Shown: positions 30,543 to 40,818 of the stretch, piece after piece | Layout: every line of letters begins with the position of its first letter | Numbering within the stretch: position 1 is the first letter of the stretch | From: an uncultured Paracoccaceae bacterium | GTDB lineage: Bacteria > Pseudomonadota > Alphaproteobacteria > Rhodobacterales > Rhodobacteraceae | Reading direction: 5' to 3' | DNA length: 40,818 bases | NCBI GenBank assembly: GCA_937863185.1 | Contig: CALMEG010000117.1 | Location: forward strand, 1 to 40,818 | The notes under the pieces: model-generated | Seen by the model: only the letters and a program-made list of their open reading frames with translations | The model's database searches: none | Told to the model about the DNA's origin: nothing | Program-made: the position numbers and the translations under genes

Positions 30543-31217
30543 ATGCCCCGGATATACCGCCTTCGAAACGTCGCCCTGCCCGCCAGGGCTGGCCGTTACG
30601 CGGTAATGCCCGGGCGCGCGATGCTTTCAGAGGTCTTTGCGCTCACGCCCGGCGACGGGGCCGCCTCGGGCTTTGTTCTGGCACAACTTCCACGCGGTCC
30701 CGCGCCGCTTTTATGGGTGCAGGACCGCGTGTCGCGGCAGGAGGCAGGGCGGCCCTATCTGCCCGGCCTCGGTCTGCCGGGCCCCATCCTGCGGGTGGAT
30801 GTGGCGCGCGCGGCCGATGTACTCAGCGCGGCCGAAGACGGGCTGCACTGCACCGCGCTTTCGGCCGTGGTGGCCGAAATCTGGGGCGATCCCCCGGCAC
30901 TGAGCTTCACCGCCAGCAAGCGCCTGGCGCTGCGCGCCGAGGCATCCGGCCTGCCCTGCTGGCTGATCCGGCGCGGCGCCAGCCCCGATCTCAGCGCGGC
31001 GCGCGAACGCTGGCGCGTGGTCTCCCTGCCATCGGCGCCCCATCCCGACGATCCGGCCGCACCGGGCGCACCACGCTGGCGGGCGGAACTGTTCCGCGCC
31101 CGCGACAGGCGTCCCGGAACATGGGTAATGTGTTATGACCCGGCGACGGATCGTGTCGATCTTTCTGCCCCATTTGCCGATGGAGCTTTGGCAAAAGCAG
31201 GCCACGCAGGCGGGTGA
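30543..31217 (+). CDS. imuA: ImuA, mutasome protein
   Basis: This is a RecA/SulA-like accessory protein of damage-induced mutagenesis that works with ImuB and DnaE2. It has 224 residues from ATG 30543 (MPRIYRLRNVALPARAGRYAVMPGRAMLSEVFALTPGDGAASGFVLAQL). The VLWVQDR-like block (PLLWVQDRVSRQEAGRPYLPGL) and the WRVVSLPSAPHP region are typical of alphaproteobacterial ImuA. It has a LexA box upstream. Its 3' end overlaps imuB by 83 nt, unusually long for this pair, with both frames carrying family sequence. Confidence 0.87.
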   Translation: MPRIYRLRNVALPARAGRYAVMPGRAMLSEVFALTPGDGAASGFVLAQLPRGPAPLLWVQDRVSRQEAGRPYLPGLGLPGPILRVDVARAADVLSAAEDGLHCTALSAVVAEIWGDPPALSFTASKRLALRAEASGLPCWLIRRGASPDLSAARERWRVVSLPSAPHPDDPAAPGAPRWRAELFRARDRRPGTWVMCYDPATDRVDLSAPFADGALAKAGHAGG

Positions 31218-32652
31218 TCCGCCCCCCCAAGAGGTGCCCGTGGCGCTGCGTACCGAAGGCCCGCACGGCCCCGTCATCCATGCCACGAACAGGGCCGCCC
31301 GGCTGGCGGGCGTGCGCGAAGGCGCGCGCGTGACGGACATGCAGGCGCTTTGCCCCGGATTGCGGGTCGAACACGCCGACCCAGAGGGCGATTCCCGGCT
31401 GCTTGCGCGGCTGAACCTGTGGATGCGGCGCTGGTGCCCCTGGAGCGCGGTCGACGGCACGAACGGGCTGGTTCTGGACACGACCGGCGCCGACCATCTG
31501 TGGGGGGGCGAGGCCGCGATGCTGGTGGATATGGAAACCCGCCTGTCCCGCCTTGGATTTTCGGCGCAGCTTGCCCTCGCGCCCACTTGGGGCGCAGCAT
31601 GGGCGCTCGCGCGGTTTGGTCCGGTGCGCGCCATCTGCCATGACACGGCCGACCTGGCCCCCCTGCCCGTCGCCGCGCTGCGCCTGCACGGGGACACCGC
31701 GTTGCTGCTGCACCGGTTGGGCCTGAAATGCGTGGGCGACCTGGCCGCGATGCCGCGCCTGTCGCTGGCGCGACGGTTCTCGCGCGCGAAGCTGGACGCA
31801 AATCCGCTGCTGCGTCTCGATCAGGCGACGGGACGCATGGGCGAACCGCTGGCCCCGCCCGATGCGCCCCCCTCGTTTCGCGCCATTGCCCGGCTGGCCG
31901 AGCCGATCATGGACCCCGCGCACCACCTGCCCGCCCTGTGCCACGACCTCTGCGCCCGGCTTGAAGCCGCCGGACAGGGCGCAAGGCGCCTGTCACTTTG
32001 CGTCTACCGCACAGACGGAGAACGGCGCCGGATCGAGGTCTCGACCGCCGCACCAAGCCGTGACCCCGCACATTTGCACAGCCTTTTCCGCGACCGGCTG
32101 GAACGGATCGACCCCGGCTTTGGCTTCGACCTGATCACGCTCGAGGCGCCGGGGGCAGAGCTACTGGACCGGACGCAGCCCATGCTGGGTGGACGGAAGG
32201 ATGCCGCGCTGGAACTGCCGCGCCTGATCGACCGGCTGACCGCCCGTTTCGGCGCACGCGCACTTTCGCGCCCTGCAGCCCGGCAAAGCCACATCCCCGA
32301 ACGGGCAGAGGTCACGGCCCCGCTGCTGGCCCCCCCCCAGGATAGCCCGCCCCTACCGAACCGCCCCGCACGGCTGCTGGATCATCCCGAGGAAATCCGC
32401 GTGCTATACGCGGTTCCCGAAGGGCCGCCGGCGCAATTCGTCTGGCGCAGACAGACCCACCGGGTGGCGCGCTATCAGGGCCCCGAACGGATCGCACCGG
32501 AATGGTGGCAGGACCGCCCCGGCACCCGCCTGCGCGATTACTTCATGGTCGAGGATCATGACGGTCGGCGGCTGTGGCTTTACCGAGAGGGGTTGCCTGC
32601 CGACGGGCGCGGCGGCCCTCCGCGCTGGTTCCTGCACGGGATGTTCTTCTGA
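31135..32652 (+). CDS. imuB: ImuB, catalytically inactive Y-family polymerase
   Basis: This is the mutasome hub, which binds the beta clamp, ImuA and DnaE2. It has 505 residues. The Y-family fold is recognisable (HATNRAARLAGVREGARVTDMQALCPGL, WCPWSAVDGTNGLVLDTTGADHLWGGEAAML, LKCVGDLAAMPRLSLARRFS). The N-terminal motif reads SIFLPHLPMELW instead of the metal-binding DxDxFF, and the second acidic motif is replaced, as known for ImuB. It therefore should not polymerise DNA. The TGA shares a base with the dnaE2 ATG. Confidence 0.93.
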   Translation: MTRRRIVSIFLPHLPMELWQKQATQAGDPPPQEVPVALRTEGPHGPVIHATNRAARLAGVREGARVTDMQALCPGLRVEHADPEGDSRLLARLNLWMRRWCPWSAVDGTNGLVLDTTGADHLWGGEAAMLVDMETRLSRLGFSAQLALAPTWGAAWALARFGPVRAICHDTADLAPLPVAALRLHGDTALLLHRLGLKCVGDLAAMPRLSLARRFSRAKLDANPLLRLDQATGRMGEPLAPPDAPPSFRAIARLAEPIMDPAHHLPALCHDLCARLEAAGQGARRLSLCVYRTDGERRRIEVSTAAPSRDPAHLHSLFRDRLERIDPGFGFDLITLEAPGAELLDRTQPMLGGRKDAALELPRLIDRLTARFGARALSRPAARQSHIPERAEVTAPLLAPPQDSPPLPNRPARLLDHPEEIRVLYAVPEGPPAQFVWRRQTHRVARYQGPERIAPEWWQDRPGTRLRDYFMVEDHDGRRLWLYREGLPADGRGGPPRWFLHGMFF

Positions 32653-35600
32653 TGCCCGAGATGGACAACCACCGCCCCCGCCGCAGCCTGACCGAAACGC
32701 TGCCCCCCAATCCGCGCGCGCCTTTCGTAGAGCTGGGCGTCAGCAGTTGCTTTTCCTTTCTGCGGGGGGCCTCGGATGCCGTGGATCTGGCATCCGAGGC
32801 CCACGCCCACGGGTATGACACGCTCGGCATTGCCGACCTGAACACGATGGCGGGCGTCGTGCGGCTGCATTGCGAAGCCCTGAAGGCCGGGTTGCGCCCG
32901 GTGATCGGCTGCCGCCTGCAATTGCAAAGCGGCGAGGAGTTCCTGGCCTATCCGCGCGACCGGGCGGCCTATGGCCGGCTTTGCGCGCTGCTGACCAAGG
33001 GTAAGATGCATGACGCGCAGGGCACATGGCAAGCCAAGGGGCGCTGCGACATCTCGCTGGAGGATCTGGCCGCCCATGCCGAGGGGGTGGAGCTGATCGT
33101 GCTACCCGGCGATGATCTGCCCCACCGCCTGCCCGGCCTGCTGCGCCGCCTGCCCACGCTGCGCCATATCGCGGCAAGTTATCTCTATCGGGGGGACGAC
33201 CGGGCGCGGATCAACCGGCTGGACCGGCTGGCGCGCACCCACGGGATCGGCATCCTCGCCACGAACGACGTGCATTACCATGCCCCCGAACGTCGCCCCT
33301 TGCAGGATGTGATGACCTGCATCCGCCAAAAGACAACCATCGCCAAGGCCGGGTTCCTGCTGCATGCCAATGCCGAACGGCACCTGAAATCGCCCGAAGA
33401 GATGTGCCGCCTGTTCGCGGACTGGCCCCATGCGATCACCGCCACCCGCGCGGTGGCCGACATGTGCCGCTTTGACCTGCGCGAACTGGCCTATCACTAC
33501 CCGAACGAGACCATCCCGCCGGGCGAAACCCCGCAAAGCCAGCTGGAAAAGTTGACATGGGCCGGCGCGGCCACGCGCTATCCCGAAGGCCTGCCCGAAA
33601 AGGTGCGCGCCACGCTTGTCAAAGAGCTTGCGATGATCGCGCAGAAGAAGATCCCGCAATATTTCCTGACCATCCACGAAATCGTCCAGTTCGCACGCGG
33701 CGCGGGCATCCTGTGTCAGGGGCGCGGCTCGGCCGCCAATTCGGCGGTGTGCTATGTGCTGGGGATCACCTCGGTCGACCCCGCGCAACACGAGCTTTTG
33801 TTCGAACGGTTCATCAGCGAAGAACGCGATGAACCGCCCGATATCGACGTGGATTTCGAGCACGAACGGCGCGAAGAGGTGATCCAGCACATCTATCGCA
33901 AATACGGCCGCCATCGCGCGGGCCTGTGTGCCACCGTGATCCATTACCGCCCCCGCTCGGCCATCCGCGAGGTCGGAAAGGCCATGGGCCTGTCCGAGGA
34001 CGTGACCTCGGCCCTGGCCAGGACCGTCTGGGGAAGCCATGGCCGCGAGATGGGGCAGGCCAATGTGAACGAGGCCGGGCTGGACCTGTCCGATCCGGTG
34101 CTGAAACGCGCGATCGTGTTGGCCGAACAGATGATCGGCATGCCGCGGCACCTGTCCCAGCATGTCGGCGGCTTCATTCTGACCGAAGGGCATCTGAGCG
34201 AAAGCGTGCCGATCGGCAACGGCGCCATGCCCGAGCGCAGCTTCATCGAATGGGACAAGGACGACATAGACGAGCTGCGCATCCTCAAGGTCGATGTGCT
34301 GGCGCTTGGTATGCTGACCTGCATCCGAAAATGCCTTGCACTCTTGCGCGTGCATCACGGGATCAAGCACGATCTGGCCTCGATCCCGCAGGGGGATGAG
34401 GCGGTCTACGACATGCTTTGCCGGGGCGATAGCGTGGGGGTCTTTCAGGTGGAAAGCCGCGCACAGATGAACATGCTGCCGCGCCTGAAGCCGCGCGTGT
34501 TCTACGATCTGGTGATCGAGGTCGCCATCGTCCGGCCCGGCCCGATCCAGGGCGACATGGTCCACCCCTATCTGCGCCGCCGCAACGGGCAGGAACCCGA
34601 GGATTATCCCGCCCCTGCGCCCCCGCATGATCCGGACGAGTTGCGCAACATCCTTGGCCGCACCAAGGGCGTTCCGATCTTTCAGGAACAGGCCATGAAG
34701 ATCGCGATCGAGGCCGCCCGCTTCAGTCCCGCCGAAGCCAACGAGTTGCGCAAGGCGATGGCCACCTTCCGCTCGCGCGGCACGATCCACAAGCTGGAGG
34801 AGAAGATGGTCGGGCGCATGGTCGAGCGCGGCTACGACCCCGAATTCGCGGCACGCTGCTTCAACCAGATCAAGGGTTTCGGGGAATACGGGTTTCCCGA
34901 AAGCCACGCCGCCAGCTTTGCGCTTCTGGTCTATGTCTCAAGCTGGCTAAAATGCCATTATCCGGCGGCCTTCGCCGCGGCGCTTCTGAATTCCCAGCCG
35001 ATGGGGTTCTATGCGCCCGCCCAGATCGTGCGCGATGCGCGCGAACATGGGGTCGAGGTGCGCGCGCCCGATGTGAACTTCAGCGAATGGGACAATACGC
35101 TTGAACCGGCAGGCACCGGATGGGCGCTGCGGTTGGGGCTGCGTCAGGTCGACGGGATGCAGGCCGCGCGTGCCCATGCCATCATCGCCGCGCGGGATCG
35201 GCCCTACCGCGACCTTCAGGATATCCGGACACGGGCCGGGGTGGATGCGGGTTCTCTTCACCGGCTTGCCGCGGCAGATGCCTGCCGTTCGCTATCGCTC
35301 GATCGGCGCGCCGCGCTGTGGCAGGCGCATGCGCTCAGGGACACGCCCGACCTGCCGCTGTTCCGCAAAACGCAGGACGAGGGCGACGAACCGCCGGCCC
35401 TCCTGCCCGCCATGCCGGTCTGCGAGCAGGTGGTGGCCGATTACCAGACGCTCCGCCTGTCGCTGAAGGCACATCCGATATCCTTCCTGCGTGCCAGCAT
35501 GACACGGCAGGGCTACCGCCCGGCCCGTGATCTGGTCAGCCTGCGCAACCACGCGCATGTGCGGCTGGCCGGGATTGTGCTGATCCGCCAGCGTCCCGGC

Positions 35601-35930
35601 AGCGCCAAGGGCGTGTGCTTCATCACACTCGAGGACGAAACCGGCATCGCCAATCTGGTGGTCTGGCCCAAGGTGATGGCACGGTTTCGCAAGACGATCA
35701 TGACCGCACGGCTGATGGATGTGCGGGGCTATGTCCAGCGTGACGGCGATGTGATCCATGTGGTGGTGCGCGCGCTTTGCGATCGCAGCGATGCGCTGTG
35801 GCGGCTGGCCGATGATCCGTTGCCCGTCCAGACCGCCCGCGCCGACCACCTTGCCCGTTCGGCACAGCCCCCCGCGCATCGCCATCCCCGCAATGTTCGG
35901 ATCATCCCGAAATCGCGCGACTTCCACTGA
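32652..35930 (+). CDS. dnaE2: Error-prone DNA polymerase DnaE2
   Basis: This C-family polymerase is used for translesion synthesis in the SOS response. ATG 32652 (MPEMDNHRPRRSL) overlaps the imuB stop (TGATG) and gives 1092 residues, the normal length; the extra 26 codons upstream lie inside imuB. An N-terminal PHP domain (FVELGVSSCFSFLRGASDAVDLASEA) is followed by the polymerase core with PDIDVDF at 396-402 (catalytic Asp399 and Asp401). A helix-hairpin-helix region and a C-terminal OB fold (VRLAGIVLIRQRPGSAKGVCFITLEDETGIANLVVWP) complete it. Confidence 0.96.
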   Translation: MPEMDNHRPRRSLTETLPPNPRAPFVELGVSSCFSFLRGASDAVDLASEAHAHGYDTLGIADLNTMAGVVRLHCEALKAGLRPVIGCRLQLQSGEEFLAYPRDRAAYGRLCALLTKGKMHDAQGTWQAKGRCDISLEDLAAHAEGVELIVLPGDDLPHRLPGLLRRLPTLRHIAASYLYRGDDRARINRLDRLARTHGIGILATNDVHYHAPERRPLQDVMTCIRQKTTIAKAGFLLHANAERHLKSPEEMCRLFADWPHAITATRAVADMCRFDLRELAYHYPNETIPPGETPQSQLEKLTWAGAATRYPEGLPEKVRATLVKELAMIAQKKIPQYFLTIHEIVQFARGAGILCQGRGSAANSAVCYVLGITSVDPAQHELLFERFISEERDEPPDIDVDFEHERREEVIQHIYRKYGRHRAGLCATVIHYRPRSAIREVGKAMGLSEDVTSALARTVWGSHGREMGQANVNEAGLDLSDPVLKRAIVLAEQMIGMPRHLSQHVGGFILTEGHLSESVPIGNGAMPERSFIEWDKDDIDELRILKVDVLALGMLTCIRKCLALLRVHHGIKHDLASIPQGDEAVYDMLCRGDSVGVFQVESRAQMNMLPRLKPRVFYDLVIEVAIVRPGPIQGDMVHPYLRRRNGQEPEDYPAPAPPHDPDELRNILGRTKGVPIFQEQAMKIAIEAARFSPAEANELRKAMATFRSRGTIHKLEEKMVGRMVERGYDPEFAARCFNQIKGFGEYGFPESHAASFALLVYVSSWLKCHYPAAFAAALLNSQPMGFYAPAQIVRDAREHGVEVRAPDVNFSEWDNTLEPAGTGWALRLGLRQVDGMQAARAHAIIAARDRPYRDLQDIRTRAGVDAGSLHRLAAADACRSLSLDRRAALWQAHALRDTPDLPLFRKTQDEGDEPPALLPAMPVCEQVVADYQTLRLSLKAHPISFLRASMTRQGYRPARDLVSLRNHAHVRLAGIVLIRQRPGSAKGVCFITLEDETGIANLVVWPKVMARFRKTIMTARLMDVRGYVQRDGDVIHVVVRALCDRSDALWRLADDPLPVQTARADHLARSAQPPAHRHPRNVRIIPKSRDFH

Positions 35931-36255: not shown

Positions 36256-36564
36256 GTGATCCGTGAATTCGCTTTGAAAGGGACCGCCGCAGTAATTGCG
36301 ATGGCACTTTGCGTAACGAGCGCCGCGGCGGAAAAGACGAGCTTCATTGCCGGGACGGCCCCCTCGGCCCGCCCCGCAGAGGCGCCGCAGATCACGGTTT
36401 TCACGCCCGCGCCGGAATGGCGCGCGCAGGCGCTGCACGGCGTCGCGCAGCCCTATCCGCCCAGCCTGTCCTGGCTGGACGATCAGGGGGCCTGGTTCAC
36501 CCCGTTCATCCATCCCGGCATGACCGGGCCTTACGACATTCGCGGCTGGCACAGCCCGCAATAG
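36256..36564 (+). CDS. Small exported protein of unknown function
   Basis: The 102 residues start at GTG 36256, which follows AGAGGGGG with good spacing; an in-frame ATG at 36208 lies in sequence without a ribosome site. Residues 1-25 (MIREFALKGTAAVIAMALCVTSAAA) are a signal peptide. The mature part of about 77 residues is rich in Pro, Trp and aromatics (PEWRAQALHG, PPSLSWLDDQGAWFTPFIHPGMTGPYDIRGWH) and has no Cys. I recognise no family. It is the first gene after the palindromic control region and precedes the Met-rich gene, so it probably belongs to the same system. Confidence 0.65.
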   Translation: MIREFALKGTAAVIAMALCVTSAAAEKTSFIAGTAPSARPAEAPQITVFTPAPEWRAQALHGVAQPYPPSLSWLDDQGAWFTPFIHPGMTGPYDIRGWHSPQ

Positions 36565-36595: not shown

Positions 36596-36735
36596 GCAGA
36601 AATCCGGGGAGAGCCGGGGAACAAGCGTGTGACCGAGGCCCGGCCCCCCCGCAGCCACCAAAGGAGCAGAGATCCGGAGAGACCCGGGAAACAGGCGTGG
36701 GCCGGAGCCCCGGCCACGCAACATCAACAAGGAGT
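36596..36735 (+). repeat. Tandem duplication of a 70-bp unit carrying a ribosome-site-like segment
   Basis: Bases 36596-36645 and 36666-36715 agree at 41 of 50 positions and are offset by exactly 70 bp. The last 20 bp of each unit are more diverged but both end in an AAGGAG-like sequence (about 36660 and 36730). The second unit supplies the ribosome site of the Met-rich gene. The first is followed by no start codon. This looks like an old duplication of the leader, possibly a remnant of a lost gene copy. Confidence 0.75.
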
Positions 36736-36743
36736 CGAGAGAC

Positions 36744-37274
36744 ATGATGAAAGCGATCAAGGGAGCCGTTGCCGTCGCCGTGAGCGCCGCTGCTCTGGCC
36801 ACGGCCGGCCATGCCGACAGCATGTCCGGGATGTCGGGCATGGATGGCATGTCGGGCATGGGCGGTATGTCGGGAATGTCCGGCATGGCCGGCATGTCGG
36901 GTATGGGCGGCATGTCGGGGATGTCCGGCAGCGGCACCTGCGTGCAATGGACCTACGCCCCCGCCATGCAAGGCATGAGCGGCATGTCGGGAATGTCCGG
37001 TATGGGTGGCATGTCCGGCATGGGCGGCATGTCGGGGATGTCCGGCATGGGCGGTATGTCCGGCATGGGCGGCATGTCGGGGATGTCCGGCATGGACGGC
37101 ATGTCGGGCATGTCCGGCATGGGCGGCATGTCGGGAATGTCCGGCATGGGTGGCATGTCCGGCATGGGCGGTATGTCGGGGATGTCCGGCATGGGCGGTA
37201 TATCCGGCATGGGCGGCATGTCGGGGATGTCCGGTATGGGCGATGGCTGGGTCTGCACCAGCTGGGCGCAGTAA
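36744..37274 (+). CDS. Exported methionine-rich M-x-G tripeptide repeat protein
   Basis: The 176 residues start at ATG 36744 (or 36747), with AGGAG upstream. Residues 1-24 are a signal peptide ending AGHA. The mature chain is 12 M-x-G triplets, a short spacer with C-x-x-W (CVQWTYAPA), 31 more triplets (one with Ile for Met), and a tail GWVCTSWAQ. That makes 42 Met in about 152 mature residues, with only two Cys, one in each non-repeat segment, and no His. Met-rich exported proteins are known as Cu(I)/Ag(I) binders or as oxidant scavengers repaired by methionine sulfoxide reductases. The lack of His argues somewhat against classical copper proteins. Neighbouring cytochrome and DmsA-like genes suggest a redox role. 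The function is inferred. Confidence 0.85.
   Translation: MMKAIKGAVAVAVSAAALATAGHADSMSGMSGMDGMSGMGGMSGMSGMAGMSGMGGMSGMSGSGTCVQWTYAPAMQGMSGMSGMSGMGGMSGMGGMSGMSGMGGMSGMGGMSGMSGMDGMSGMSGMGGMSGMSGMGGMSGMGGMSGMSGMGGISGMGGMSGMSGMGDGWVCTSWAQ
36822..37244 (+). repeat. 9-bp minisatellite encoding M-x-G
   Basis: The repeat is a run of 9-bp units, mostly ATG-TCC/TCG-GGC or ATG-GGC-GGC, in two blocks (36822-36929 and 36966-37244). A higher-order unit of five triplets (MSG MSG MGG MSG MGG) recurs in the second block, pointing to growth by duplication of 45-bp segments. Synonymous codon choice varies (TCC/TCG, GGC/GGT/GGG/GGA), so it is not a fresh expansion. The other frames are free of stops for long distances only because of this period. 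Confidence 0.9.
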
Positions 37275-37347: not shown

Positions 37348-38847
37348 ATGAAAAAGCTAGAACACCTTCTCGGACTTCTTGCCGGTATCGGCTTCGCCGG
37401 AACGGTCCTTCTTTCGCTCAACGCGGCCGCGAACCTGATCTACCGGGTCTCGACCGGCGATGGACCAAAGGCGGAACTGGCGCAACCGGCCGGGCAAGAC
37501 GCGCAAGACCAGGGCGCAGAAGAAACAGGGGAACCCGCCCCGGGAACGGTCGCCGCGGCCGAACCCCCGGCACCCTCTGCGGCCGGGATCGACCTTGCCG
37601 CAGGCGAGAAGGTCTTCAAGAAATGCGCGGCATGCCACACTGCCGGAAAGGACGGCGCGAACCGCACCGGCCCCAATCTCTGGGGGATCCTGAACCGCCC
37701 CGTGGCCGCGCATGCGGGCTTTGCCTATTCCGAGGCGATGGCCGCCCAATCCGGCGAAAGCTGGAGCGCCGAGCGTCTGGACATCTACCTGAGCAAACCC
37801 AAGGATATCGTGCCCGGCACCAGCATGGCCTTTGCGGGCCTGCCCAAATCCGCCGACCGGCACAACCTGATCGCCTGGCTCGGCGCGCAATCCGACACGC
37901 CGGTAGCCCCCGACGCCCTGCCCTTCGGCGGGGCAACGCAGGTTGCGGACAACGCCGAAGCCCCCACCGAACCCGAGGAAGACCCGATCGCCCAGATCGC
38001 CTATGCGAACCCGCCCGACCCGACCGCCGAAGAGCTGGCCGCGATTGCCGCGAAGGTCGCCGCGCTGACCGGGGAACTGCCCGGCCTCGACTATGAGCGC
38101 GCGCGCCATCACCCGCTGCATTTCCCGCCCGCGATCGACAGCGCCTCGAACGCGGAATGCCTTGTCTGCCACCAGGAGATCATGACCGCGAAGCCCCGCG
38201 ACGAAAGCCCCGCGGGCGTGAAGGCCGCCGACAGCCTGGCCTGGTATCAGACGCTCGATACCTACATGGGCGATCAGGAAAGCTTTCACTTCCGCCACCT
38301 GCAAAGCGACTTCGCGCAAGAGGTGATGGATCTGAAATGCAACTTCTGCCACCGCGGCAATGACCCGCGCGAGGAAAGCCCCGACATGATGCCCTTGCGC
38401 GCGGCCTTCTCGGCCGGGCCGCAGCCCGAATTTACCAACCGCAAGATGGTGAACCCCGAAACCACCTGCCTGCGCTGCCATGGCGCGATGCCCGATCCGG
38501 TCGGGATCATGGGCCTGCCGGGTCCCTGGCACGAGGCGCGGCGGGCCGGGGGGAACCCCGAAGCCCCCAACATGACGAAGGGCGCCGGGCGTTCCCAGGC
38601 CGACCTGTCCCGAGCCATCCGCCACAACGTCACCTATCTCAGGGCCGCCAATATCGAGGCGCTTGCGAAAGAGGTCTCCTCGGACACCTGCCACGGCTGC
38701 CACGGCGGGCGGCAATGGTATCGCACGGCCTATCCCTATCCGCGCCACGCCTGGCCCGGCATGGACCCCGAGCCGCCCGAATGGGTCGCCGGCCGCCCCA
38801 CCCAATCCGACGAAGCCTATCGCCTGCCTACCGCAGCCGGCCAGTAA
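37348..38847 (+). CDS. Membrane-anchored five-haem cytochrome c (class I domain fused to tetrahaem domain)
   Basis: This is probably a periplasmic electron-transfer protein. ATG 37348 gives 499 residues. Residues of about 7-31 form an N-terminal membrane anchor, and 40-80 an Ala/Pro/Glu-rich linker. Residues 81-180 form a class I cytochrome c domain (CAACH at 93-97, probable axial Met160 in PGTSMAF). A second part (about 250-499) has four CxxCH sites at 271-275, 331-335, 374-378 and 448-452. I do not recognise the tetrahaem part as a named family. It lies 12 nt before the molybdoenzyme gene and is its likely electron partner, passing electrons between the enzyme and the respiratory chain in a direction that cannot be read. 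Confidence 0.85.
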   Translation: MKKLEHLLGLLAGIGFAGTVLLSLNAAANLIYRVSTGDGPKAELAQPAGQDAQDQGAEETGEPAPGTVAAAEPPAPSAAGIDLAAGEKVFKKCAACHTAGKDGANRTGPNLWGILNRPVAAHAGFAYSEAMAAQSGESWSAERLDIYLSKPKDIVPGTSMAFAGLPKSADRHNLIAWLGAQSDTPVAPDALPFGGATQVADNAEAPTEPEEDPIAQIAYANPPDPTAEELAAIAAKVAALTGELPGLDYERARHHPLHFPPAIDSASNAECLVCHQEIMTAKPRDESPAGVKAADSLAWYQTLDTYMGDQESFHFRHLQSDFAQEVMDLKCNFCHRGNDPREESPDMMPLRAAFSAGPQPEFTNRKMVNPETTCLRCHGAMPDPVGIMGLPGPWHEARRAGGNPEAPNMTKGAGRSQADLSRAIRHNVTYLRAANIEALAKEVSSDTCHGCHGGRQWYRTAYPYPRHAWPGMDPEPPEWVAGRPTQSDEAYRLPTAAGQ

Positions 38848-38859
38848 CAGGAGAGCGCC

Positions 38860-40818
38860 ATGAACAGCTTCAACCCCTCGGCCTGGGCGCGGCTCTTTAC
38901 CCCCACGCGGCGCGAGTTCCTGCGCAGCTCGGCCGCCGTGGCGGCCACGACGCTGGTGCTGCCCGCCACCGCGCGCCGGGCCGGGGCCTTCGCCTACGAG
39001 CCCTATCCCCGCGACGACGATCTCGAGACGGTCGTCACCTCTTGCGCGCATAACTGCGGCTCGCGGCACATGCTGGTCGCGCACAAGAAGGGCGACGTGA
39101 TCGTGCGCCTGTCCACCGATAACGGCAGCTATCAGGGCGATGCCTATGGCACCGATACCGAGGAAAAGCCGCAGCTACGGGCCTGCCTGCGCGGACGCAG
39201 CTACCGCTCGCGTCTCTACAGCCCCGAGCGGCTGCTGTATCCGATGAAGCGCGTCGGCCGGCGCGGCGAGGGCAAGTTCAAGCGCATCGGCTGGGATCAG
39301 GCCCTGACCGAGATCGCCGAGCGGATGGTCTATCTGCGCGACAAATACGGCCCCCAGGCCCTGCTCGATCAAAGCTATGCCGGCGCCTCCTATGGCGTCT
39401 TGCACAAGTCCGACCAGATCGAGGGGCTTCTGGGCCGCTTTCTGGGCATGTTCGGCTGCCGCACCTCAAGCTGGTCGGTGCCCTCGTATCAGGCCACGAC
39501 ATTCTCCAGCCGCATGACCTTCGGCACGATCGAGGACGGCAACGAAGACGATGCCTATGCCCATTCCAGACTGATGATCATGTGGGGCTGGAACCCGGCC
39601 TACACCTTCCACGGCGGCAATACTTTCTATTACCTGCGCATGGCCAAGCAGCGCGGCTGCAAATTCGTGCTGGTCGATCCGCAATATACCGACTCGGCCG
39701 CCGCCTACGATGCCTGGTGGATCCCGATCAAACCCAACACCGATGCCGCCATGATGGCGGGCATGGCCCATCACATCTGGGCCAACGGCTGGCACGACCA
39801 GGGCTTCATCGACCGCTTCGTGCAGGGCATGGACCCCGGCACCACGCCCGACTGGGCCTATCAGCGCGGGCACGAAAGCTTCCGAGAATATATCGAGGGG
39901 ACCAATGACGGGGTGCCCAAGACCCCCGACTGGGCCGCCGCGATCTGCGGCGTTCCCGCCGATGACATCCGCAAGCTGGCCGAGATGTATGCCACCACCA
40001 AGCCCGCCGCGCTGAAGGCAAGCTGGGCGCCCGGCCGCAACGCCTATGGCGAGCAATACAACCGCATGGCCGCCGCCCTTCAGGCGATGACCGGCAATAT
40101 CGGCATCCTGGGCGGCTGCGCCGAGGGCGTGGGCAAGGGCTGGCATGCCGAGGCGGTGGCCTATCCCTACGACCAGTTCGCCAATGTCTGGTTCGCCTCG
40201 ATCAAGTCGGACCGTTGGGCGCATGCGGTGCTCAACTATCCCGATGTGAGGCGCGAGGAGATCGGCCTCTGGCCCCGCTCGGACCAGTGGGACGGGGTGG
40301 TGCCGAATATCCGCGGCATCTTCTGGCAGGGCTCGGACTGGTTCAACCAGCTCACCAACATCAACAAGGAGATCGAGGCGATCCGCAAGCTCGATGCCGA
40401 GGGCGAGAGCGAAAGCCTGTTCGTCTGTTCCGACAGCACCATCACGCCCACCGGCATCTGGGCCGATTACCTGCTGCCCGTCGCCACCCATTTCGAGCGC
40501 CACGACGTGGCCCTGCCCTGGTACAAGGGGCATTACTACATCCACCGCCCGAAGGTGATCGAGCCCCTGGGCGAAAGCAAGACCGACTTCCAGATCTATA
40601 CCGCGCTTGCCTGGCGGCTGGGGTTCGGGCCGGGATACAATCCCAAGGCCGATGCCTCGTATTTCGACAATCCCGACGCGGTGGACGAGGCCTATCTGGT
40701 CGACTGGTGGCACCGTGTGCAGGACCACCAGCATGTCGAGATAAGCTGGGAAGAGTTCAAGCGCCGCGGCGTCTACAAGTTCGTCCTGCCGCAGCCCCAT
40801 GTCGCCTTCCGCGAGCAA
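38860..40818 (+). CDS. Tat-exported DmsA-like molybdopterin oxidoreductase, 3' end cut by window
   Basis: This is a DMSO-reductase-family catalytic subunit with bis-MGD and one FeS cluster, exported folded. The first 653 residues are present. A Tat signal (TRREFLRSSAAV, Arg17-Arg18) runs to about residue 43 (AGA/F). The FeS motif is C62-x3-C66-x3-H70-x38-C109 followed by LRGRSYRSRLYSPERLLYPMKRVGRRGEGKF, very like E. coli DmsA except for His70 where DmsA has Cys. Ser209 (VPSYQ) aligns with the Mo-ligand serine of DmsA. ATG 38860 follows AGGAGA. FeS and membrane subunits are expected downstream, outside the window. The substrate (sulfoxide, N-oxide, or an oxidation such as sulfide/sulfur) is unknown. 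Confidence 0.9.
   Translation, partial: MNSFNPSAWARLFTPTRREFLRSSAAVAATTLVLPATARRAGAFAYEPYPRDDDLETVVTSCAHNCGSRHMLVAHKKGDVIVRLSTDNGSYQGDAYGTDTEEKPQLRACLRGRSYRSRLYSPERLLYPMKRVGRRGEGKFKRIGWDQALTEIAERMVYLRDKYGPQALLDQSYAGASYGVLHKSDQIEGLLGRFLGMFGCRTSSWSVPSYQATTFSSRMTFGTIEDGNEDDAYAHSRLMIMWGWNPAYTFHGGNTFYYLRMAKQRGCKFVLVDPQYTDSAAAYDAWWIPIKPNTDAAMMAGMAHHIWANGWHDQGFIDRFVQGMDPGTTPDWAYQRGHESFREYIEGTNDGVPKTPDWAAAICGVPADDIRKLAEMYATTKPAALKASWAPGRNAYGEQYNRMAAALQAMTGNIGILGGCAEGVGKGWHAEAVAYPYDQFANVWFASIKSDRWAHAVLNYPDVRREEIGLWPRSDQWDGVVPNIRGIFWQGSDWFNQLTNINKEIEAIRKLDAEGESESLFVCSDSTITPTGIWADYLLPVATHFERHDVALPWYKGHYYIHRPKVIEPLGESKTDFQIYTALAWRLGFGPGYNPKADASYFDNPDAVDEAYLVDWWHRVQDHQHVEISWEEFKRRGVYKFVLPQPHVAFREQ

Follow-up and report, generated by a model that had tools for sequence, protein, structure and literature searches.

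Exported M-x-G repeat proteins encoded with a multihaem cytochrome and a DmsA-like molybdoenzyme in Proteobacteria: a candidate regenerable methionine sink

Proteins that consist largely of M-x-G tripeptides (about 5-97 triplets) are encoded just 5' of a pentahaem cytochrome and a DmsA-like molybdenum reductase in alpha-, beta- and gammaproteobacteria. The case analysed here comes from an uncultured Paracoccaceae bacterium, where the gene lies near the end of a 40,818-nucleotide contig (CALMEG010000117.1, here C117; this whole stretch is the window). The protein may be a regenerable periplasmic methionine sink for oxidants that would be re-reduced by the neighbouring DmsA-like enzyme, an interpretation suggested by gene content and conservation that stands, in our estimate, about midway between doubtful and likely. 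The first-pass annotation of the window, made from the letters of the DNA, singled out the repeat protein and missed its strict link to the cytochrome and molybdoenzyme operon.

The repeat protein and its operon

The relevant features of the window are as follows.

36256-36564, plus strand: conserved small exported companion (102 aa, GTG start), with relatives in 46 GTDB loci
36744-36815, plus strand: Sec-type signal peptide (aa 1-24, MMKAIKGAVAVAVSAAALATAGHA), assigned by eye
36822-36929, plus strand: M-x-G block 1, 12 triplets (aa 27-62)
36930-36965, plus strand: cap 1, non-repeat segment SGTCVQWTYAPA (aa 63-74; Cys66, Trp69), predicted strand 65-72
36966-37235, plus strand: M-x-G block 2, 30 triplets including one Ile (aa 75-164)
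37236-37274, plus strand: cap 2, non-repeat segment MGDGWVCTSWAQ (aa 165-176; Cys171, Trp169, Trp174) and stop, predicted strand 168-175
37348-38847, plus strand: membrane-anchored cytochrome, class-I cytochrome c plus multihaem domain (Pfam PF00034, PF22113, PF14522)
38860-40818, plus strand: Tat-exported molybdopterin oxidoreductase, DmsA/YnfE-like catalytic subunit, cut by the contig end

The ORF at 36744-37274 (plus strand) starts with ATG, has no internal stop and encodes 176 amino acids. Counted at the codon level, it contains 42 in-register triplets in two blocks, 41 with Met and one with Ile (MSG 26, MGG 11, MDG 2, MAG 1, MQG 1, ISG 1), that is, one fewer than the 43 initially reported; the accompanying description of an unusual exported repeat protein with Cys/Trp segments and no His in the mature chain is confirmed by the ORF and the codon count. 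The mature chain, which starts at D25 if the cleavage site is placed by eye, is 28% Met and contains no His, Lys or Arg, two Cys and three Trp, and the protein's sole His belongs to the signal peptide. In the homologues, typical AxA sites are found at the place equivalent to the predicted cleavage site. At the DNA level, TRF detects a 9-bp tandem array at 36820-37238. The Collagen model of Pfam (PF01391) matches with 30.0 bits, against a cut-off of 27.2, and Pro is found in none of the triplets of the window copy; a collagen-like protein was rejected given the lack of Pro and the weakness of the matches to Gly-x-x models. Beyond such models, the Pfam and NCBIfam scans found no known-family match for the M-x-G protein, and the NCBIfam scans of several family members returned collagen-like adhesin noise only. 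A tblastn search of plasmids with the repeat, run under a low-complexity filter, produced no matches.

The two Cys/Trp segments, which the first-pass annotation took to bracket the repeat block, are real, but 12 triplets precede the first of them and 30 lie between the two. In the AlphaFold2 model, the caps are the sole strands (aa 65-72 and 168-175; pLDDT about 70-75), and this pair of predicted strands is weakly suggestive of a clasp; the repeats are unstructured (pLDDT 45, a weak test of disorder). The window segments belong to a WxCTQW/Y motif that is usual in the alphaproteobacterial copies, but the copies from beta- and gammaproteobacteria and Azospirillum mostly have no caps, or have other spacers without Cys, so that the caps are mainly an alphaproteobacterial trait and not a defining feature of the proteins. 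A cap that acts as an essential clasp was rejected because caps are not universal among the M-x-G proteins; where caps exist, a disulfide clasp is plausible, and the general function does not need one.

The companion gene encodes a protein with the invariant residues G32, R38-P39, G77-x-W79 and Y92-D93-x-R95 (numbered from codon 2), which has no Pfam, NCBIfam or PHROGs match and a predicted fold of short helices only (pLDDT 74, pTM 0.36). Between this gene and the M-x-G gene, a non-coding 70-bp sequence is present in two tandem copies (36596-36734; 76% alike). Homologues of the cytochrome carry 4-6 CxxCH haem motifs; at 38560-38630, the window cytochrome has one CxxCH fewer than its paralogue and the Rhodobacter xanthinilyticus copy, the motif being missing via substitutions, with no net frameshift.

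The window ends inside the molybdoenzyme gene, and another contig of the same genome, C8, begins with the matching C-terminal part, followed by genes for an Fe-S subunit, a TorD-type chaperone, a 4Fe-4S protein, a haem sensor kinase and a sigma-54 response regulator; we infer from this match that the operon of C117 probably continues on C8. The source genome has a second such operon on contig C37, with its M-x-G gene cut by the contig start. In the paralogous operon, a further gene between those for the M-x-G protein and the cytochrome (L005, 351-647) encodes a second Met-rich protein of 98 aa, which has a membrane anchor at its N-terminus and 8 M-x-G triplets. On plasmid pEJ01 of Rhodobacter xanthinilyticus, the gene order is identical and the M-x-G protein is 244 aa long. 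The sensor kinase of the operon carries CxxCH in 51 of the 52 loci, and a near-consensus sigma-54 (-24/-12) site is found 5' of the companion gene, within about 120 bp (about 30-115), in about 16 of 42 loci; there is no such site upstream of the companion in the window. Directly upstream of the operon (31135-35930), the window encodes an ImuB-like Y-family polymerase and an error-prone DnaE2, the usual SOS mutagenesis pair.

Distribution and selection on methionine

When GTDB contigs were scanned with an alignment of the enzyme, 409 relatives came up, of which the best 80 were analysed; these come from alpha-, beta- and gammaproteobacteria, and the few deviating record labels among them (e.g. 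Exiguobacterium, Desulfobulbus) are probably mislabelled bins. An M-x-G gene lies within 4 kb in 35 of the 42 GTDB loci with at least 3.5 kb of upstream sequence. Among the seven enzyme loci without an M-x-G gene at this distance, two belong to genomes that encode M-x-G proteins elsewhere (G295, and G298, where a pair lies in tandem), in a third there is a short Met-rich lipoprotein, and about four have no clear full-length M-x-G protein elsewhere either, some of these being incomplete MAGs. Contigs often break inside the M-x-G gene, as expected because of the repeat.

The same coupling is seen in whole genomes. In Rhodobacteraceae (n=295), the cytochrome gene occurs in seven genomes, and a genuine M-x-G protein is encoded in the same seven and in none of the 288 that lack the cytochrome; in the phylum-wide sample (n=349), the molybdoenzyme occurs in five genomes, with a genuine M-x-G protein in all five and in 0 of the 344 others. 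By simple counting, the odds of such co-occurrence are <1e-10, for genomes that are related and of which two are common to both samples. The other high-identity matches to the M-x-G query are Met-free LSG, TSG or similar repeats; the low-identity matches that were read singly are the best 30, and Met-rich proteins with fewer than about 10 triplets can miss the threshold. The first-pass annotation would have taken a lack of homologues, or frameshifts within the repeat, as the mark of a non-functional minisatellite; numerous homologues exist in dozens of genomes at the equivalent operon position, and clear or possible breaks affect about two of the 44 uncut copies (L026 and L060).

In L168 (1-2004; genome G023, contig C18), a PQQ-dependent dehydrogenase of the methanol/ethanol family ends, at its C-terminus, in an M-x-G tail of about 25 triplets, and its gene adjoins that of a c-type cytochrome. 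The repeat has, to judge from this gene, been recruited there as an added module of a different periplasmic redox enzyme.

Within the repeats, the methionine is kept and the remaining positions drift. In the window copy, the triplets open with ATG in 41 cases and with ATA in one, Gly is encoded with all four wobble bases (GGC 26, GGT 7, GGG 6, GGA 3), and Ser by TCC, TCG and AGC. In a pool of 74 repeat segments, drawn from the window copy and from related loci, the 2295 internal Met-register positions comprise 2189 Met, 104 Gln and 2 Ile, and the Gly register 2189 Gly and 2 others; these counts are non-independent, given that repeats copy one another and that some segments are second genes or pieces of one locus. 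Gln at the Met register belongs to distinct units, such as MEGQKG, and the spacer residue varies by lineage (Ser, Gly, Asn, Ala, Asp, Glu, Lys or Gln). The drift of spacers and silent sites indicates that there was time for the Met register to vary, and yet Leu, Val, Thr, Lys and Arg, which like Ile are one base change away from ATG, are not seen at any of the 2295 positions, hence it is the thioether itself that is kept. Codon usage and conservation thus support the window ORF as a real, selected protein.

The molybdoenzyme and competing explanations

The catalytic subunit matches PF00384 (E 8.5e-41), and its best family match is TIGR02166 (DmsA/YnfE), with 419.6 bits against a cut-off of 777.7 for a window copy that lacks the last fifth. 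At the position of the Mo-ligand Ser of DMSO reductase (PDB 1eu1), the alignment places Ser209, which is shared by all of the best 80 of the 409 relatives; in the same 80, the Tat RR motif is present in 79, and the SYGW motif keeps its Tyr and has Gly in place of Trp throughout. The Fe-S site (C62, C66, H70, C109) is kept as well. These best 80 relatives are at least 74% identical to the query across classes, and the nearest other molybdoenzymes show 30-42% identity. By its alignment, the catalytic subunit is a member of the Ser-ligated DMSO reductase superfamily (DorA/DmsA type). In the operon enzyme, Gly instead of Trp may give a peptide access to the pocket.

Methionine sulfoxide (MetO) is the chemistry that a chain of pure thioethers and an S-oxide reductase of the Ser type would most naturally have in common. 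Under the sink interpretation, the M-x-G protein would be a periplasmic, mostly unfolded Met reservoir in which, we infer, roughly 40 exposed thioethers are oxidized in vivo to MetO by periplasmic oxidants, the natural ones possibly being hypohalous acids, peroxides or similar. Electrons from the respiratory chain would pass through the multihaem cytochrome and the Fe-S subunit to the DmsA-like molybdoenzyme, which would turn the sulfoxides back into Met and so render the chain a rechargeable oxidant sink, and the haem-bearing periplasmic sensor kinase and the sigma-54 activator encoded in the operon would switch the system on in response to a presumed signal. That this amounts to a widespread respiratory system with a dedicated protein polymer as its substrate, in which electrons run from cytochrome through Fe-S subunit and molybdoenzyme to the MetO of the M-x-G chain, is a more tentative proposition, possible rather than probable; the molybdoenzyme could instead respire an unrelated small substrate.

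DorA of Rhodobacter sphaeroides can reduce MetO within proteins, with a preference for GAGM(O)QA over GYM(O)EEW (PMC7402097), and the preferred context is close to SGM(O)SG. Exported, membrane-anchored MsrA-MsrB fusions are encoded tail to tail with the gene for the sigma-54 regulator of the operon in two loci (L041, 18237-19373; L049, 9973-11160), and an exported MsrA about 6 kb from the operon in L016/L083, when about 0.5 MsrA genes would be expected in the 1.5 Mb of loci searched (on the basis of 20 in about 61 Mb). This presence of MsrA or MsrAB at three places near the operon is suggestive, with the qualification that L041 and L049 may share one event. MsrP has no match in the same 1.5 Mb around the operon and is encoded elsewhere in 18 of 25 genomes with the operon, including the source genome (contig C74), so that there is no obvious need for a dedicated reductase, or MsrP could do the job. 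The operon as a replacement for MsrP was rejected, MsrP being present in most of these genomes.

The main rival to the methionine sink is Cu(I) binding: a Cu(I)/Ag(I) sponge or chaperone that buffers metals or protects the cytochrome and molybdoenzyme through the thioethers of M-x-x-M-x-x-M. Sites built of Met alone at i, i+3 are a recognized arrangement for soft metals, this spacing suits such metals with almost no need for Cys or His, and the constraint falls on the thioether. The tight link, however, is to an S-oxide-type molybdoenzyme, exported Msr genes lie nearby, and no copper genes recur among the neighbours common to at least 8 of 80 loci (clusters judged from sequence). Swaps from Met to His or Cys number 0 among the 2295 register positions, and His is limited to 0-2 residues in nearly all M-x-G copies, as anticipated by the initial remark that the protein is unlike the mixed Met/His copper proteins; neither the mixed Met/His motifs nor the recurrent copper gene cluster of copper resistance is found. 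On balance, we consider metal binding unlikely.

Quite unlikely, too, is a passive scavenger of by-products of the molybdoenzyme, formed in the respiration of an oxyanion or other oxidant and repaired by MsrP or MsrA/B. MrpX has such a role in perchlorate reducers (PMC4623255), YnfE-like enzymes reduce selenate, going by family names, and most of these genomes encode MsrP and MsrA. Against this, no other detoxification gene recurs among the operon neighbours, and chlorite dismutase (PF06778) is absent in 15 of 15 genomes, for which reason a standard (per)chlorate system was rejected.

A structural, elastic or assembly role, in which a chain with Gly at every third position and polyproline-II segments would scaffold, tether or chaperone the complex of cytochrome and molybdoenzyme, appears distinctly improbable. 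Such a role accords with the G-x-x periodicity, the above-threshold Collagen match and the tail fused to the PQQ dehydrogenase in one genome, and structural roles have been proposed for the GGM tail of GroEL and for abductin, the Gly/Met tails of GroEL adopting isolated PPII conformations (PMC12571646). Nevertheless, the AlphaFold2 prediction is one of disorder, a weak test, and Met is not swapped for Leu, Val or Ile as a hydrophobic role would permit (2 Ile of 2295). Finally, a non-functional minisatellite translated by accident is hardly credible and was already refuted by conservation and codon drift: the 9-bp tandem array varies in copy number and two loci have frame breaks, but the position, signal peptide and Met register are kept over several classes in the face of synonymous drift.

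Known systems and implications

The closest parallels are MrpX of Azospira suillum, encoded with YedYZ, for which Met/MetO cycling of an exported Met-rich peptide has been proposed (PMC4623255), and BcrX of Brucella (BcrXQP), an exported Met-rich peptide with MsrPQ and the same proposed cycling (PMC8315932). In both, an exported Met-rich protein is encoded with a molybdenum enzyme, and the logic of the sink matches; the components, however, are unrelated, the partner being MsrP (YedYZ/MsrPQ) rather than a DmsA-like protein. BcrX consists of MXKDX repeats, whereas the M-x-G protein has neither such repeats nor the corresponding NCBIfam match, and regulation in MrpX/BcrX relies on an ECF sigma/anti-sigma pair rather than a haem kinase and a sigma-54 activator.

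On the enzyme side, the active-site Tyr and the Ser that ligates Mo in DorA align between DorA and the operon enzyme. Nonetheless, DorA is only distantly related: the operon enzyme adds an Fe-S site, an Fe-S subunit and a dedicated Met-rich partner, and has Gly where DorA has the Trp of SYGW. DmsA/YnfE systems share the layout of Fe-S subunit and TorD-type chaperone but have a DmsC-type anchor where the M-x-G operon has a multihaem cytochrome. The GGM tail of GroEL/Hsp60 and abductin resemble the M-x-G protein in their Gly/Met-rich repeats (PMC12571646); the former, however, is a four-repeat cytoplasmic appendage and the latter a clam elastomer, and neither combines export, operon linkage and at least 40 Met in a bacterial protein.

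The idea of an exported Met-rich sink is thus already known, and what we have not found described is the M-x-G family, its partner enzyme and their strict coupling; the literature search found no paper with M-x-G repeat strings or a description of the family. An undescribed family of extreme composition is now tied to a conserved proteobacterial molybdoenzyme, for which it suggests a substrate. Whether enzymes of the DMSO reductase type repair proteins in vivo is a question that Tarrago et al. left open (PMC7402097), and the operon, by pairing such an enzyme with a candidate protein substrate, makes it directly testable. If the polymer-substrate interpretation is true, the M-x-G chain would be a rechargeable redox capacitor or oxidant sink, and the molybdoenzyme would represent a new class of protein-MetO reductase with its own substrate protein.
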